DNA of 35,358 nt from contig WHST01000066.1 in the NCBI GenBank assembly GCA_009379955.1, positions 1-35,358 on the forward strand. The letters run 5' to 3'. The stretch comes from Streptosporangiales bacterium (lineage in GTDB: Bacteria > Actinomycetota > Actinomycetes > Streptosporangiales > WHST01). A program made the position numbers and the translations under genes. This document shows, piece by piece, positions 2,010 through 35,093 of this stretch (the first letter of the stretch is position 1; each line of letters opens with the position of its first letter). The notes below the pieces were generated by a model. That model had not been told where the DNA came from. It did not search any database and worked only from the letters and a program-made list of their open reading frames with translations.

Positions 2010-3155
2010 TCAGAGACCCATCGTCTTCGCGATGATGTTTCGCTGGATCTCCGACGTGCCCGCGCCGATCGTGCCGAGACGCGAGTCGCGGAGGTGGCGC
2101 TGCAGGTCGTACTCCATCGTGTAGCCGTAGCCGCCGAGGATCTGCACGCCCATGTCGGCCACCGCCTTGTACGCCTCGCTCACGTAGAGCTTCAGTATCG
2201 CCGCGTCGCGGACCGTGTTGGTCCCCTGGTCGAGGCGTTCGGCGTAGCGGTAGACGAGGGTCCGGGAGATGTCGACCATCAGCTGCATCTCGGCGAGCTT
2301 GTGACTGACGGCCTGGTACGCCCCGATCGGCTGCCCGAACTGGTGGCGCTCCTTGGCGTACGCGAGCGCGTCGTCGAGCGCCGACTGCGCGGCGCCCATC
2401 CGCGCGGCCGACAGGCACAGGCGCTCGAACTCGAGCACGTCCATGAGGACGGGCCAGCCGTCGTCCTGCGGACCGATCCGGTTCTCCGCGGGCACCTCGA
2501 CGTCGTCGAAGTGCAGCACGGTGGTGCCCAGCGGCCAGTGCCCCAGCGTCTCCAGCGGCCTGGCCGTGAGACCGGGGCTGTCGGTCGGCACGAGCAGCAG
2601 CGTGATGCCGTGGTGCTTGCGCTTCCCCGTGCTCGTCCGCGTGACAGTCAGGACGTAGTCGGACACCTTGAACCCGGAGCAGAAGATCTTGCCACCGGTG
2701 ACCCGGTATCCGTCGCCTGTCGGTGTCGCCGCTGTCCTGATCGCCGCCGCGTCGGAGCCGGAGTCGGGCTCGGTCAGCGCGAAGCACACCGAGATCTCGC
2801 CGCGCGCCAGCGCCGGCAGGAACCGTTGCCGCTGCTCGGGTGTGCCGTGCGTGCCGAGTGCGTGCGCACCGTGGCCGAGGTTGCGGAAGGTCCAGAAGGC
2901 GAGGTCGAGGAATCCCCTGCCGAGCTCCTCGAGCAGCGTGGCCACCGTGGACGTGCCGGCACCGCCGCCGCCGTACTCCTCCGCGACGTTGACGCCCAGG
3001 TACCCGAGCTGTCCCAGCTCCTTGAACGCCTCGACGGGTGCGCGGTGCTCGCGGTCGCACTCGCGCACGTACTCGCGCGGGTAACGCTTCGCGAACAGGT
3101 CGCGCACCGTGCTCCTGAGCATCTCCTGCTCGTCGGTGGTCTCGTTACCCTTCAT
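2010..3155 (-). CDS. Acyl-CoA dehydrogenase
   Basis: The 381-residue product is a normal-length flavin acyl-CoA dehydrogenase. An N-terminal helical domain comes first, then the FAD/substrate motif CFALTEPDSGSDAA (about residues 124-137), YRVTGGKIFCSG (150-161), and the C-terminal helical domain with QLMVDISR, ILGGYGYTMEYDLQRHLRDSR and GTSEIQRNIIAKTMGL. The position used as catalytic base in medium-chain enzymes is Ala here (IGAGTSEIQR). Glu244 in LEFERLCLSAARMG sits where isovaleryl-CoA and long-chain enzymes keep their base, suggesting a branched-acid substrate. The ATG at 3155 follows AAGGAG. It overlaps the CoA-transferase stop by ATGA, so the two are translationally coupled. Confidence 0.93.
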   Translation of the reverse strand: MKGNETTDEQEMLRSTVRDLFAKRYPREYVRECDREHRAPVEAFKELGQLGYLGVNVAEEYGGGGAGTSTVATLLEELGRGFLDLAFWTFRNLGHGAHALGTHGTPEQRQRFLPALARGEISVCFALTEPDSGSDAAAIRTAATPTGDGYRVTGGKIFCSGFKVSDYVLTVTRTSTGKRKHHGITLLLVPTDSPGLTARPLETLGHWPLGTTVLHFDDVEVPAENRIGPQDDGWPVLMDVLEFERLCLSAARMGAAQSALDDALAYAKERHQFGQPIGAYQAVSHKLAEMQLMVDISRTLVYRYAERLDQGTNTVRDAAILKLYVSEAYKAVADMGVQILGGYGYTMEYDLQRHLRDSRLGTIGAGTSEIQRNIIAKTMGL

Positions 3156-29344: not shown

Positions 29345-29812
29345 ATGAAGGGCACGACCACCTCACCGCCAGCGGCCCGGCTGGGTCTCGCCGAGTCGCT
29401 CGCGCGCCTCTCCAACCTGGTGCAGCGCGCGTTCGTGGAGGTCGGCCGCCGGTACGACCTCACCGCGCAGCAGGCACAGTTCCTCTGCCGGCTCACCGAG
29501 GGCCCGGTCGGCATGACCGAGCTGACCCGGATGCTCCACCTGGAGAAGTCGAGCCTCACCGGGCTCGTCGACCGGCTCGAGCGGCGTGGCCTCGTCGCCC
29601 GGACGCCCCACTCGTGCGACAGGCGCGCCCACCTGGTCGCGCTGACCCGGCAGGGCACCCGCGCCGCAGCCGACTACCACGACGACCTGGTCGCGCGGCT
29701 CGAGACCATGACCTGCGACCTGCCACCCGCGGACCGGCGTCATCTCGAGGATCTGCTCGGGCAGGTGCTCGCCGGCGTCGCCGACGACGCGTCAGCCCAG
29801 CGGGCCGAGTAG
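29345..29812 (+). CDS. MarR family transcriptional regulator
   Basis: The 155-residue product has a central winged helix: LTAQQAQFLCRLTEGPVGMTELTRMLHLEKSSLTGLVDRLERRGLVAR, then the wing DRRAHLVALTRQGT, with flanking dimerisation helices. The ATG at 29345 is preceded by TACACT (29333-29338) as a -10 box 7 nt away and by no ribosome site, so it is probably leaderless. The GTG at 29312 would start inside the operator repeat and is rejected. It likely represses itself and the divergent oxidoreductase, responding to a phenolic or oxidative ligand (family knowledge). Confidence 0.9.
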   Translation: MKGTTTSPPAARLGLAESLARLSNLVQRAFVEVGRRYDLTAQQAQFLCRLTEGPVGMTELTRMLHLEKSSLTGLVDRLERRGLVARTPHSCDRRAHLVALTRQGTRAAADYHDDLVARLETMTCDLPPADRRHLEDLLGQVLAGVADDASAQRAE

Positions 29813-29938
29813 GACGAGCGGGATCTCCCGCTCCGTGCGCGCCTGGTAGGCGGCGTACCGCGGGTGCCGCCCGACGACCCTGGGCCAGCGATCGCCCAAC
29901 CCGACAGCCGCTACACCGAGCGGCACACCACCATCGGG
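29792..29938 (-). pseudogene. C-terminal remnant of deazaflavin/F420-type nitroreductase (DUF385)
   Basis: The minus-strand frame ends with RWPRVVGRHPRYAAYQARTE and then REIPLVLLGPLG, stop at 29792-29794. This is the typical C-terminus of Ddn-like F420-dependent nitroreductases. No start or N-terminal half is present here. Beyond about 29938 the homology is lost. The matching N-terminal half is at 31284-31562 on the same strand. It overlaps the 3' end of the MarR gene by 21 nt. Confidence 0.75.
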
Positions 29939-29998
29939 GGGGTTCGTTCTCTCCAATTCTCGGCTGTCTTCAGCGACGGTCGGCGGGCGCGGGCTGCG

Positions 29999-30394
29999 TC
30001 AGTCCTGTGGACTGTAGGCGATCGCGTCGACGTCGATCAGGAAGTCCAGCGGTGGACGTCCCTCGAAGGTCATGCGGGCCGGGAGGTAGTCGGTGAAGTA
30101 GGTGCGGTAGACCTCGTTGAAGGCGGCCCAATCGTCGACGTTCTGCAGGTGGACGGTCACCATGACGAGATTGTCGAGGGTGGCGCCTGCGGCGTCGAGG
30201 ACGATGCGGATGTTGTCGAAGACCCGTCGGGTCTGGGTCGCCAGGTCTTTCGGCACTACCTGTCCGGTCGCGGGATCGACCGGGACGGTACCGGACACGA
30301 AGATGAAGTCGCCGGCTTTGACCGCCTGCGAGAACGGCCCGAGTGGGATGCCGGCCTTCTCGGTGAACACGACTGTCTTGGATCCGGGCGTCAT
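29999..30394 (-). CDS. RidA family protein
   Basis: The 131-residue product is a full-length RidA/YjgF enamine/imine deaminase: FSQAVKAGDFIFVSGTVPVDP, TRRVFDNIRIVLDAAGATLDNLV, and the catalytic Arg107 in LPARMTFEGRPP followed by LIDVDAIA. RidA proteins hydrolyse reactive 2-aminoacrylate-like imines. The ATG at 30394 follows AGGAGTAGCC. It is divergent from an XRE-cupin regulator across a palindromic operator and lies inside the segment that splits the nitroreductase gene. Many such paralogues serve a particular catabolic pathway. Confidence 0.92.
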   Translation of the reverse strand: MTPGSKTVVFTEKAGIPLGPFSQAVKAGDFIFVSGTVPVDPATGQVVPKDLATQTRRVFDNIRIVLDAAGATLDNLVMVTVHLQNVDDWAAFNEVYRTYFTDYLPARMTFEGRPPLDFLIDVDAIAYSPQD

Positions 30395-30430
30395 GGCTAC
30401 TCCTCGACAAACGGCCTCTTATGCGAGGTA

Positions 30431-30452
30431 ACAGTCTCATATACGAGACTGT
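30431..30452. promoter_or_regulatory. Palindromic operator between ridA and XRE regulator
   Basis: ACAGTCTC (30431-30438) and GAGACTGT (30445-30452) form a perfect 8-bp inverted repeat around ATATAC. It is centred between the divergent genes and overlaps the -35 area of the regulator. The GTCTC-AT half-site matches the operon A promoter. Autoregulation by the XRE protein is likely (inference). Confidence 0.65.
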
Positions 30453-30477
30453 CGAGCAACGGGCTATCGTGACCTGT

Positions 30478-31065
30478 GTGGACGAGGCACGGCGGGCGGT
30501 CGCTGCCAACCTCCGCACGATCCGCGCGGCCAGAGGCCTGACGGTGGCGGCTCTGGCGCAGGCGAGCGGCATCGGGAAGGCGACGTTGTCACGGATCGAG
30601 GCCGGTCAGGCGAATCCGACCCTCGAGACCCTCTACGCACTCGCTGATGCTCTGGGGGTGTCCTGGGGGACCCTGGTCGCGGAGCCCCCGGCGCGCACCG
30701 TGCGTACCAGAGCTGCTGATGTTCCGGTGCTCGCCGGGCCCGTCGAGGCGAGGCTGCTGACCCAGATCACGGGTGTGCCGTTGTTGGAGGGGCTGGACGT
30801 GGGGTTCCCGGTGGGCGCTCGGCGGGAGTCGGGTGCGCATCCGCGGGGTGTGGTCGAGCACCTGTTCCTGGTTGGTGGGCGGCTGCGGGCGGGCCCGCTC
30901 GACGCACTGGAGGATCTCGACACCGGTGACGTGCTGCGCTTCGCCGCCGACGTCCCGCACGCCTACGAGGCGCTCGACGGGCGGGCCGCGCAGGCGATCC
31001 TGCTGATGACCTACCCGTCGATCTCGGCCGGAGATCGCGGGTCCGAGACTCCCGCGGGCTTCTGA
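30478..31065 (+). CDS. XRE family regulator with C-terminal cupin domain
   Basis: The 195-residue product has an N-terminal HTH_3 domain (AANLRTIRAARGLTVAALAQASGIGKATLSRIEAGQANPTLETLYALADALGV) and a C-terminal cupin (GVVEHLFLVGGRLRAGP, DTGDVLRFAADVPHAYEAL). The GTG at 30478 is chosen because TATCGT (30465-30470) gives a TANNNT -10 box 8 nt upstream, and no ribosome site exists, so it is probably leaderless. A GTG at 30469 is an alternative. Such regulators commonly control an adjacent transporter or small-molecule enzyme, here ridA. Confidence 0.9.
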   Translation: MDEARRAVAANLRTIRAARGLTVAALAQASGIGKATLSRIEAGQANPTLETLYALADALGVSWGTLVAEPPARTVRTRAADVPVLAGPVEARLLTQITGVPLLEGLDVGFPVGARRESGAHPRGVVEHLFLVGGRLRAGPLDALEDLDTGDVLRFAADVPHAYEALDGRAAQAILLMTYPSISAGDRGSETPAGF

Positions 31066-31074
31066 CGGTGGTGT

Positions 31075-31281
31075 GCGTCGGCGTGGGCAGTGGTGACCCG
31101 GTTGTCGCGGATGGCCCGCTCGGTGCGCCATCTCACCGAGGTCGCCGCGCTGCTCGCCGAGCGCGGGGTGGACCTGGTGGTGCTCAAGCAGGGCATCGAT
31201 ACCACCACCCCGGCGGGGCGGCTCCTGTTCCACGTCATCGGCGCGATGGACGAGATGCTGGCCGACCTGGTCAGCGAGGGC
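31075..31281 (+). pseudogene. Serine recombinase (resolvase) internal fragment
   Basis: The plus frame reads VVTRLSRMARSVRHLTEVAA, LLAERGVDLVVLKQGIDTTT and PAGRLLFHVIGAMDEMLADL, ending at VSEG. This is the middle and dimerisation helix of a small serine resolvase. The catalytic N-terminus and the C-terminal DNA-binding part are missing. It starts 10 nt after the XRE stop in the same frame, and it ends exactly where the nitroreductase half begins (31284). It is a mobile-element remnant marking a recombination boundary. Confidence 0.8.
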
Positions 31282-31283
31282 GG

Positions 31284-31562
31284 CCCTCCCCGCAGCGACA
31301 CCTCCACCTCAGGCCGTTCGCGGAGGTTCATGAACCAGGCCGGGTGCCGGTCGTCGCCACCGCGCGAGCCGACCACGACGTAGGTGCTCCCCTCGCGCAG
31401 CGGCGACGTCAGCACCGACCGTGGCCTGCCGGACCGTCGCCCGGCGGTCGTCAGCTCGAGGACGGGCATGCCCACGACGTCCCGACCGAAGCGACCAGCG
31501 GTGACGGCGAGGAGCAGCCGGTGGACGGCGTTCATCGCCTTCAGCGTCAGGTCGCGCGGCAC
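31284..31562 (-). pseudogene. N-terminal half of deazaflavin/F420-type nitroreductase (DUF385)
   Basis: From a GTG at 31562 the frame reads MPRDLTLKAMNAVHRLLLAV, GRFGRDVVGMPVLELTTAGRRSG, RSVLTSPLREGSTYVVVGSRGG and DRHPAWFMNLRERPEVEVSL. These are the N-terminal two thirds of a Ddn-like F420-dependent oxidoreductase. Homology stops at RGG (31284), and the following bases belong to the resolvase fragment read from the other strand. The C-terminal third is at 29792-29938. The start is 10 nt after the amidase stop, so the gene once ended the amidase operon. Confidence 0.82.
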
Positions 31563-31572
31563 AGCACCGTCC

Positions 31573-33003
31573 TCACCGTCCGACCGGCTGGTCGAACCGC
31601 GGGCGGTGACGTGACCAGGGCATCGCCTGTTCGAGGGCGTGGCCGACCTCGAGCACCGTGCGGTCGGCGCCGGGCGCGGCGACGATCTGCATGCCGACCG
31701 GCAGGCCGTCCGGTGAGAAGCCGGCGGGCACCGACAGGGACGGGCAGCCGATCGCGGTGACGAGCGTGCAGGAGCGCATCCAGCCGATGTAGTCGGGCTG
31801 CGGCACCCCCTCGACCTCGGTCGGGTACTCGACGTCGACGTCGAACGGCAGGACCTGGGTGGTCGGCGCGAGCAGTACGTCATAGCGGTCGAAGAAGTCC
31901 ACGGCGGCGAGACGCAGGTTCGCCCGGAGCACCTCGGCGCGGCCGACGTCTGCGGCGGACAGCCGCAGGCCACGCTCGGCGTTCCAGCGGATCGTCTCCT
32001 TCACCTGGTCCGGGTGCTCGCGCACCAACCCGCCGAACGCCGTCGCGAAGTGCCAGGCACGGATCACGTCGAACACCTCGTCGGCGTCGTCCAGGTCCGG
32101 GCAGTCCGGGGTGACCCGCATCCCGAGGCCCTCCACGACCGGCAGGGTGGCGGCGATGACGTCGCGCACCGCCACGTCGACCGGGATGCGACCGCCGAGG
32201 TCCGGCGCCCACGCCACGCGCAGGCCGGGTCGCAGCGGCGGCGGGGGCGGTGCGAACCCCGCGCCGGGCTCGCTCAGCGCGAGCGGCGCCCGCCGGTCGG
32301 GACCGGCCAGCACCGACAGCATGAGCGCGACGTCGGCGACCGTACGCCCGAGCGGGCCCTGCACCGCCAGCGTCGACCAGGGCTGCGCGCTCGGGTGCGA
32401 GGGGACGCGGCCCGGCGACGGGCGCAGGCCGGCGACGTTGCAGAACGCCGCCGGGTTGCGCAGCGAACCGCCCATGTCGCTGCCTTCGGCGAGCGGCGTC
32501 AGCCCGGCCGCGAGTGCGGCGGCGGCACCACCGCTCGACCCGCCGGCACTGACGTCGCGGCGGTACGGGTTCCGCGTCGCGCCGAACACCGGGTTGAAGG
32601 TGTGCGAGCCGGCCGCGAACTCGGGGACGTTCGACTTGCCCAGTCGGACGGCGCCGGCAGCGGCGAGCCTGGCCACGACGAGGTCGTCCTGGTCGGGCAC
32701 GAAGTCCGCGTGCAACGGCGACCCGAACGTGGTGCGCAGGCCGGCGGTGAGGTGGGTGTCCTTGTGCACGACCGGGAGCCCGTGCAGTGGCCCGAGCGGC
32801 TCACCGCGAGCAGTCCGTTCGTCCGCGGCCGCGGCCACCCGCCGGGCCCGGTCGGCGTCGAGGGTCACGACGGCGTTGACCGCCGGGTTCACCCGTGCGA
32901 TGCGCGCGAGGTGGGCCTCGAGCAGCTCACGTGCGGACACCTCGCGACGGCGCACCATGGCCGCAAGCTCCGTCGCCGGCAGGTAGCACAGCTCGTCCGA
33001 CAT
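31573..33003 (-). CDS. Amidase (amidase signature family)
   Basis: The 476-residue product is a normal-length amidase signature enzyme. The Ser-cisSer-Lys triad is visible: Lys in GLPVVHKDTH (about 83), the central SAGGSSGGAAAALAAG, and the nucleophile in GSDMGGSLRNPAAFCNVAGLRPS. The C-terminal part has IGCPSLSVPAGFSPDGLPVGMQIV. It hydrolyses amides to acid plus ammonia. The start at 33003 follows AGGGAG. It lies 22 nt after the carboxyltransferase gene, in one operon with it and the CoxL remnant, so its physiological partner may be lost. Confidence 0.94.
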   Translation of the reverse strand: MSDELCYLPATELAAMVRRREVSARELLEAHLARIARVNPAVNAVVTLDADRARRVAAAADERTARGEPLGPLHGLPVVHKDTHLTAGLRTTFGSPLHADFVPDQDDLVVARLAAAGAVRLGKSNVPEFAAGSHTFNPVFGATRNPYRRDVSAGGSSGGAAAALAAGLTPLAEGSDMGGSLRNPAAFCNVAGLRPSPGRVPSHPSAQPWSTLAVQGPLGRTVADVALMLSVLAGPDRRAPLALSEPGAGFAPPPPPLRPGLRVAWAPDLGGRIPVDVAVRDVIAATLPVVEGLGMRVTPDCPDLDDADEVFDVIRAWHFATAFGGLVREHPDQVKETIRWNAERGLRLSAADVGRAEVLRANLRLAAVDFFDRYDVLLAPTTQVLPFDVDVEYPTEVEGVPQPDYIGWMRSCTLVTAIGCPSLSVPAGFSPDGLPVGMQIVAAPGADRTVLEVGHALEQAMPWSRHRPRFDQPVGR

Positions 33004-34552: not shown

Positions 34553-34948
34553 TCATCGTCCACGAGCGGCCCGCAGGTGCGCGTGAATCAGTTCGGGACT
34601 CATCGGCACCCGGTGCAGCGGCGCGATGTCGAGCGGCGCGAGCGCGTCCTGCACGGCCGAGGCGAACACCGCTCCCACCGGGATCGTGCCCGCCTCGCCC
34701 ACGCCCTTGGCGCCGATCGGGTTGAGCGGCGACGGCGTCTCGATGTGGTGCATCTCCAGGTGCGGCACCTCGGTCGCGTACGGCATCAGGAAGTCCATGA
34801 AGCTCGCGTTGCGCAGGTTTCCCAGCTCGTCGTAGTCGAGGTGTTCGTAGAACGCCCCGCCGACCCCCTGGGCGACACCACCCGCGATCTGGCCCTCCAC
34901 GACCATGGGGTTGATCATATTGCCGCAGTCGTGCACCCGCGCAGCCGC
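34553..34948 (-). pseudogene. C-terminal fragment of CoxL/xanthine dehydrogenase-type molybdopterin subunit
   Basis: The frame ending at 34553 reads RVHDCGNMINPMVVEGQIAG, GVAQGVGGAFYEHLDYDELG, SFMDFLMPYATEVPHLEMHH and NPIGAKGVGEAGTIPVGAVF. This is the last ~130 residues of a roughly 750-residue molybdenum hydroxylase large subunit, with the catalytic Glu region (KGVGEAG) present. The N-terminal five sixths and any small/medium subunits are absent. Family-like sequence stops near 34948, about 80 bp before a tRNA-like sequence. The downstream genes are intact, so the operon lost its promoter end. Confidence 0.85.
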
Positions 34949-35026
34949 ACCCTGAATGGCAACACGAAACGGACCAAACGGATGGCGGTGACACCATCGA
35001 GAGCACGTTCCGCAGGTCAGAGTGTG

Positions 35027-35093
35027 TGGGGCGGGCGGGGCTCGAACCCGCGACCGACGGATCATGAGAACTGCTCTCCCCCGCTACCACACC
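35027..35093 (-). tRNA. Degenerate tRNA-Met-like sequence (CAT)
   Basis: The minus strand carries a perfect T-arm (GCGGG-TTCGAGC-CCCGC, 35035-35051), a plausible A73 (35027), 3' acceptor CCGCCCC (35028-35034), and a CTCATGA anticodon loop (35062-35068, CAT anticodon) followed by TCCGT. The 5' half is damaged. The D-arm is short, the 5' anticodon strand CAGTT does not pair with TCCGT, and the acceptor GGTGTGG pairs with one mismatch and one wobble. It is best read as a tRNA pseudogene or a 3' tRNA fragment of the kind left at integration sites. A working tRNA is unlikely. Confidence 0.5.

Follow-up and report, generated by a model that had tools for sequence, protein, structure and literature searches.

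A DUF385 oxidoreductase gene probably disrupted by acquired DNA carrying an intact ridA/XRE-cupin pair in a Streptosporangiales bacterium

The predicted BoxR (aromatic metabolism) and CatM/BenM-type regulons include RidA genes, in an arrangement other than the one described here (PMC6449761). We analyzed a window of 35,358 nucleotides from a Streptosporangiales bacterium (contig WHST01000066.1, assembly GCA_009379955.1), in which a gene of the RidA/YjgF family (PF01042, TIGR00004) and a gene for an XRE-cupin regulator lie inside an interrupted oxidoreductase gene, next to a recombinase remnant. The pair resembles RidA/YjgF genes with an XRE-cupin regulator in that both genes are complete, of usual length and divergent, with a palindrome between them, but the pairing was absent beside the fetched relatives, which reached ~35-49% identity for the XRE protein and up to 50% for RidA. 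The remnant resembles the small serine recombinases (Resolvase, PF00239) found on actinobacterial plasmids, being 64% identical over the kept core to a plasmid recombinase of Rhodococcus pseudokoreensis, and differs from them in consisting of only 64 residues that lack the catalytic serine segment.

The interrupted gene was assigned to the deazaflavin (F420)-dependent oxidoreductases (DUF385/PF04075) based on profiles and homologues. Its N-terminal piece (31284..31562, minus strand; 93 aa, GTG start) matched PF04075 (F420H2_quin_red) with E=5e-18 at profile positions 12-82 of 130, and the C-terminal piece (29792..29887, minus strand; W-P-R-V-V to P-L-G, followed by a stop) matched it with E=0.001 at positions 102-128, in the same order. 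The corresponding matches to the nitroreductase-like TIGR00026 were at positions 3-65 and 82-110 of 111. There was accordingly no full-length PF04075 match in one frame, and two separate partial matches were found instead. The original prediction had placed the C-terminal end at 29792-29938, which was too long: the homology stops at 29887, the piece starts at the tryptophan codon at 29887-29885, and 29888-29938 had no recognisable oxidoreductase homology.

Scanning genome contigs with the N-terminal piece yielded 58 loci, and at the 57 examined the relatives were intact proteins of ~143 aa from actinobacterial genomes. Both pieces aligned collinearly and on the same strand with one intact protein in at least 50 actinobacterial genomes, which bore out the earlier proposal of one gene split in two. 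The gap between the two matches in these intact relatives was mostly ~50-57 bp. In a family profile of 143 positions made from the 57 relatives, the N-terminal piece covered positions 1-99 (144 bits) and the C-terminal piece positions 112-141 (36 bits); about 17 residues are absent between them if 1-4 residues at the edge of the N-terminal piece are taken as chance matches. Since the two ranges do not overlap, the pieces are complementary halves of one protein. DUF385 genes are multicopy, and it could be argued that the halves stem from two different truncated paralogs with ordinary gene content between them. The only two other copies in the genome are distant (37-40%), with no closer intact copy, and we regard a two-paralog origin as very improbable for halves that are complementary without overlap, share strand and order, and are separated by a gap of ~17 codons.

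The nearest intact relative of the N-terminal piece was found in Pseudonocardia terrae (76% identity). The piece itself is one residue short, reading SV-LTSP where every relative listed has SVxLTSP, which is consistent with relaxed selection on the oxidoreductase. Judged from its sequence, the gene is a disrupted PF04075 member and thus a pseudogene, the product of which should be inactive. It is the final gene of an apparent carboxyltransferase-amidase-oxidoreductase operon, and going by this gene order, its loss was probably mild for the operon, as it is the last member. The C-terminal piece and the convergent MarR gene overlap at their ends.

The intervening segment proved real and somewhat longer than the 1.35 kb first given, covering 29888-31281 (~1.39 kb). 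From left to right, it contains a 50-bp stretch, ridA on the minus strand, the palindrome, the XRE-cupin gene on the plus strand, and the serine recombinase core (31090..31281, plus strand). The core corresponds to positions 69-130 of 145 in PF00239, lacking the N-terminal segment with the catalytic serine as well as the C-terminus; one cut lies close to the XRE gene and the other abuts the oxidoreductase. Its last position is 31281, and oxidoreductase homology starts again at 31284, in agreement with the prediction that it stops within 3 bp of the break. Its closest plasmid matches include Rhodococcus, Arthrobacter, and Pseudonocardia, and the genome held no second match to it at E 0.001. No full-length recombinase was found. 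The edges showed neither a target-site duplication nor a terminal inverted repeat, and the exact repeats shared by them were at most 7 bp long. A consensus promoter/terminator scan of 29700-31700 gave no match.

The complete ridA-XRE-resolvase block, for which a search at other sites had been proposed, had no further copy in its own genome, two genus mates, or 72,556 plasmids. The two genus mates had short fragment matches only, and the DNA comparison with the plasmids gave separate matches only, with RidA genes and recombinases among the matches listed. No RidA gene was found beside the fetched XRE loci and no XRE gene beside the fetched RidA loci, and the resolvase core had no match at either. 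All the marks of a serine-recombinase transposon or integrative element (an intact recombinase, terminal repeats or a target duplication, and occurrence of the block elsewhere among the sequences searched) were missing. A compact element of this type, whose own serine recombinase inserted the ridA/XRE cargo and subsequently decayed, would explain why a recombinase core of a family common on plasmids sits within the insert with one end exactly at the break. Nevertheless, with the recombinase truncated on both sides, no duplication or inverted repeat, no further copy of the block in genus mates or plasmids, and relatives that stand without each other or a resolvase alongside, we consider such an origin unlikely. 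The interruption of one gene is well supported, and its interruption by acquired, partly decayed DNA is supported. With no duplication, terminal repeat, full recombinase, or second copy of the block found in these searches, and with a remnant devoid of the catalytic segment and of recognisable ends, the originally predicted delivery of ridA and the XRE gene by a recombinase-bearing element is not established.

The 50-bp stretch at the left edge (29888..29937) matched plasmid DNA: over 43 bp it is 89% identical (E=4e-5) to a region without annotation that precedes mobF in a Pseudonocardia broussonetiae plasmid. This was its sole convincing match; translated searches recovered the same plasmid only, and an exact search of viral contigs gave no match. 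The plasmid counterpart is located at 2994-3050 of the fetched locus, and its plus frame is conserved as AI[AT]QPDSRYTERH. Several other assignments of this edge were rejected. An IS630 origin was suggested by matches of 81% to Azospirillum IS630 sequences, which had E values of ~0.9, and no IS630 frame was evident. A Tn3-type end, considered for the run GGGGGGGTTCG at 29937, had no partner repeat at the right edge and no second genomic copy. In other genomes of the order, pattern searches with the stretch mostly picked up a conserved motif of genes that by eye resemble alpha-L-fucosidases, and these matches were consequently not counted as relatives.

Taken together, we consider it likely that the oxidoreductase was disrupted by horizontally acquired DNA that was later trimmed, leaving a pseudogene and an intact, probably autoregulated ridA/XRE pair. 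This reading is favored by the collinear halves, the absence of a closer intact copy, the near lack of matches to the insert in the genus mates, the doubly cut recombinase and its plasmid relatives, the mobF-type plasmid match at the left edge, the residue lost from the N-terminal piece, and the low GC content of ridA (0.636, vs. 0.73-0.75 in the flanking genes). Against it stand the composition of the XRE gene, which is near that of the host (0.721), the shortness of the plasmid similarity in the 50-bp stretch, the different neighbors of the MarR orthologue, and the synteny check, in which no uninterrupted oxidoreductase allele was found among three genomes of the genus and family. The acquired DNA would probably have been plasmid- or island-derived, and later deletions would have trimmed it to the ~1.39-kb mosaic, also taking the ~17 target codons. 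The simplest history is thus the insertion of a longer acquired stretch followed by deletions. Both edges, the missing codons, and the truncation of the recombinase on either side are observed, whereas we infer that the insert was once larger and in which order these events took place. The fragments of the insert may have separate histories. The draft genome comprises 225 contigs with 3.8% contamination, and a mosaic of short unrelated pieces might also be produced by chimeric assembly or binning, but the same gene resumes beyond the insert in the right order and the composition is broadly uniform, which makes an artifact hardly credible.

The ridA-like gene (29999..30394, minus strand; 131 aa) is intact, with a full-length match to PF01042 above cutoff (1e-30, 106.5 bits, profile positions 6-120 of 121) and a further match to TIGR00004 above cutoff. 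A search of 347 genomes from the order and 396 from the phylum gave relatives of at most 50% identity. The XRE-cupin regulator (30478..31065, plus strand; 195 aa from the GTG at 30478) is likewise intact and has a clear HTH_3 match (6e-17) and a weak Cupin_2 match below cutoff (E=0.004). It aligned with homologues over ~180 residues, with ~35-49% identity among the matches listed for 299 genomes from the order and 395 from the class. The complete divergent pair of the original prediction was hence confirmed, with a weak cupin match. The palindrome predicted between the genes is also present (ACAGTCTC-ATATAC-GAGACTGT, 30431..30452), and its role as an operator is probable. When the 86-bp ridA-XRE intergenic region was shuffled 2000 times, arms of this length appeared in 23 cases; the region contains a second CTC-N6-GAG at 30416-30427. 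An operator shared with XRE relatives was rejected, as the palindromes upstream of those examined differ.

Going by the general behavior of such regulators and by the palindrome, ridA is probably controlled by the XRE-cupin protein, and the two genes would form a small surviving unit that regulates itself. The regulator would occupy the palindrome and repress both divergent genes, a small ligand filling the cupin domain would release ridA, and RidA, judging from its family, would then hydrolyze reactive enamines and imines. On Alicyclobacillus and Paracoccus plasmids, genes of the branched-chain amino-acid exporter AzlC/AzlD directly follow XRE relatives, which may point to the class of ligand that regulators of this family bind. 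A more far-reaching reading, in which the pair and its palindrome are a self-regulating detoxification cassette that travels from genome to genome and was caught at this site along with a portion of its carrier, appears quite improbable. The case is a real but ordinary gene disruption with genome decay, in which the gain of genes went together with the loss of another by a mechanism that is not new. Its value lies mainly in annotation, where two stubs become one pseudogene and the ridA/XRE pair a likely acquired, locally regulated unit.

A 170-aa frame at 34553-35065 of the window (minus strand) matched only the last 59 positions of MoCoBD_2 (225-283 of 283). By this profile match, it is a C-terminal scrap of a CoxL/xanthine-dehydrogenase-type gene, so that two truncated genes lie near the break. 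Its upstream translation (IRRSRVRAPPAP) resembles the translated 3' half of a tRNA, and although ARAGORN found no tRNA in this stretch, a former insertion at a tRNA site is possible.
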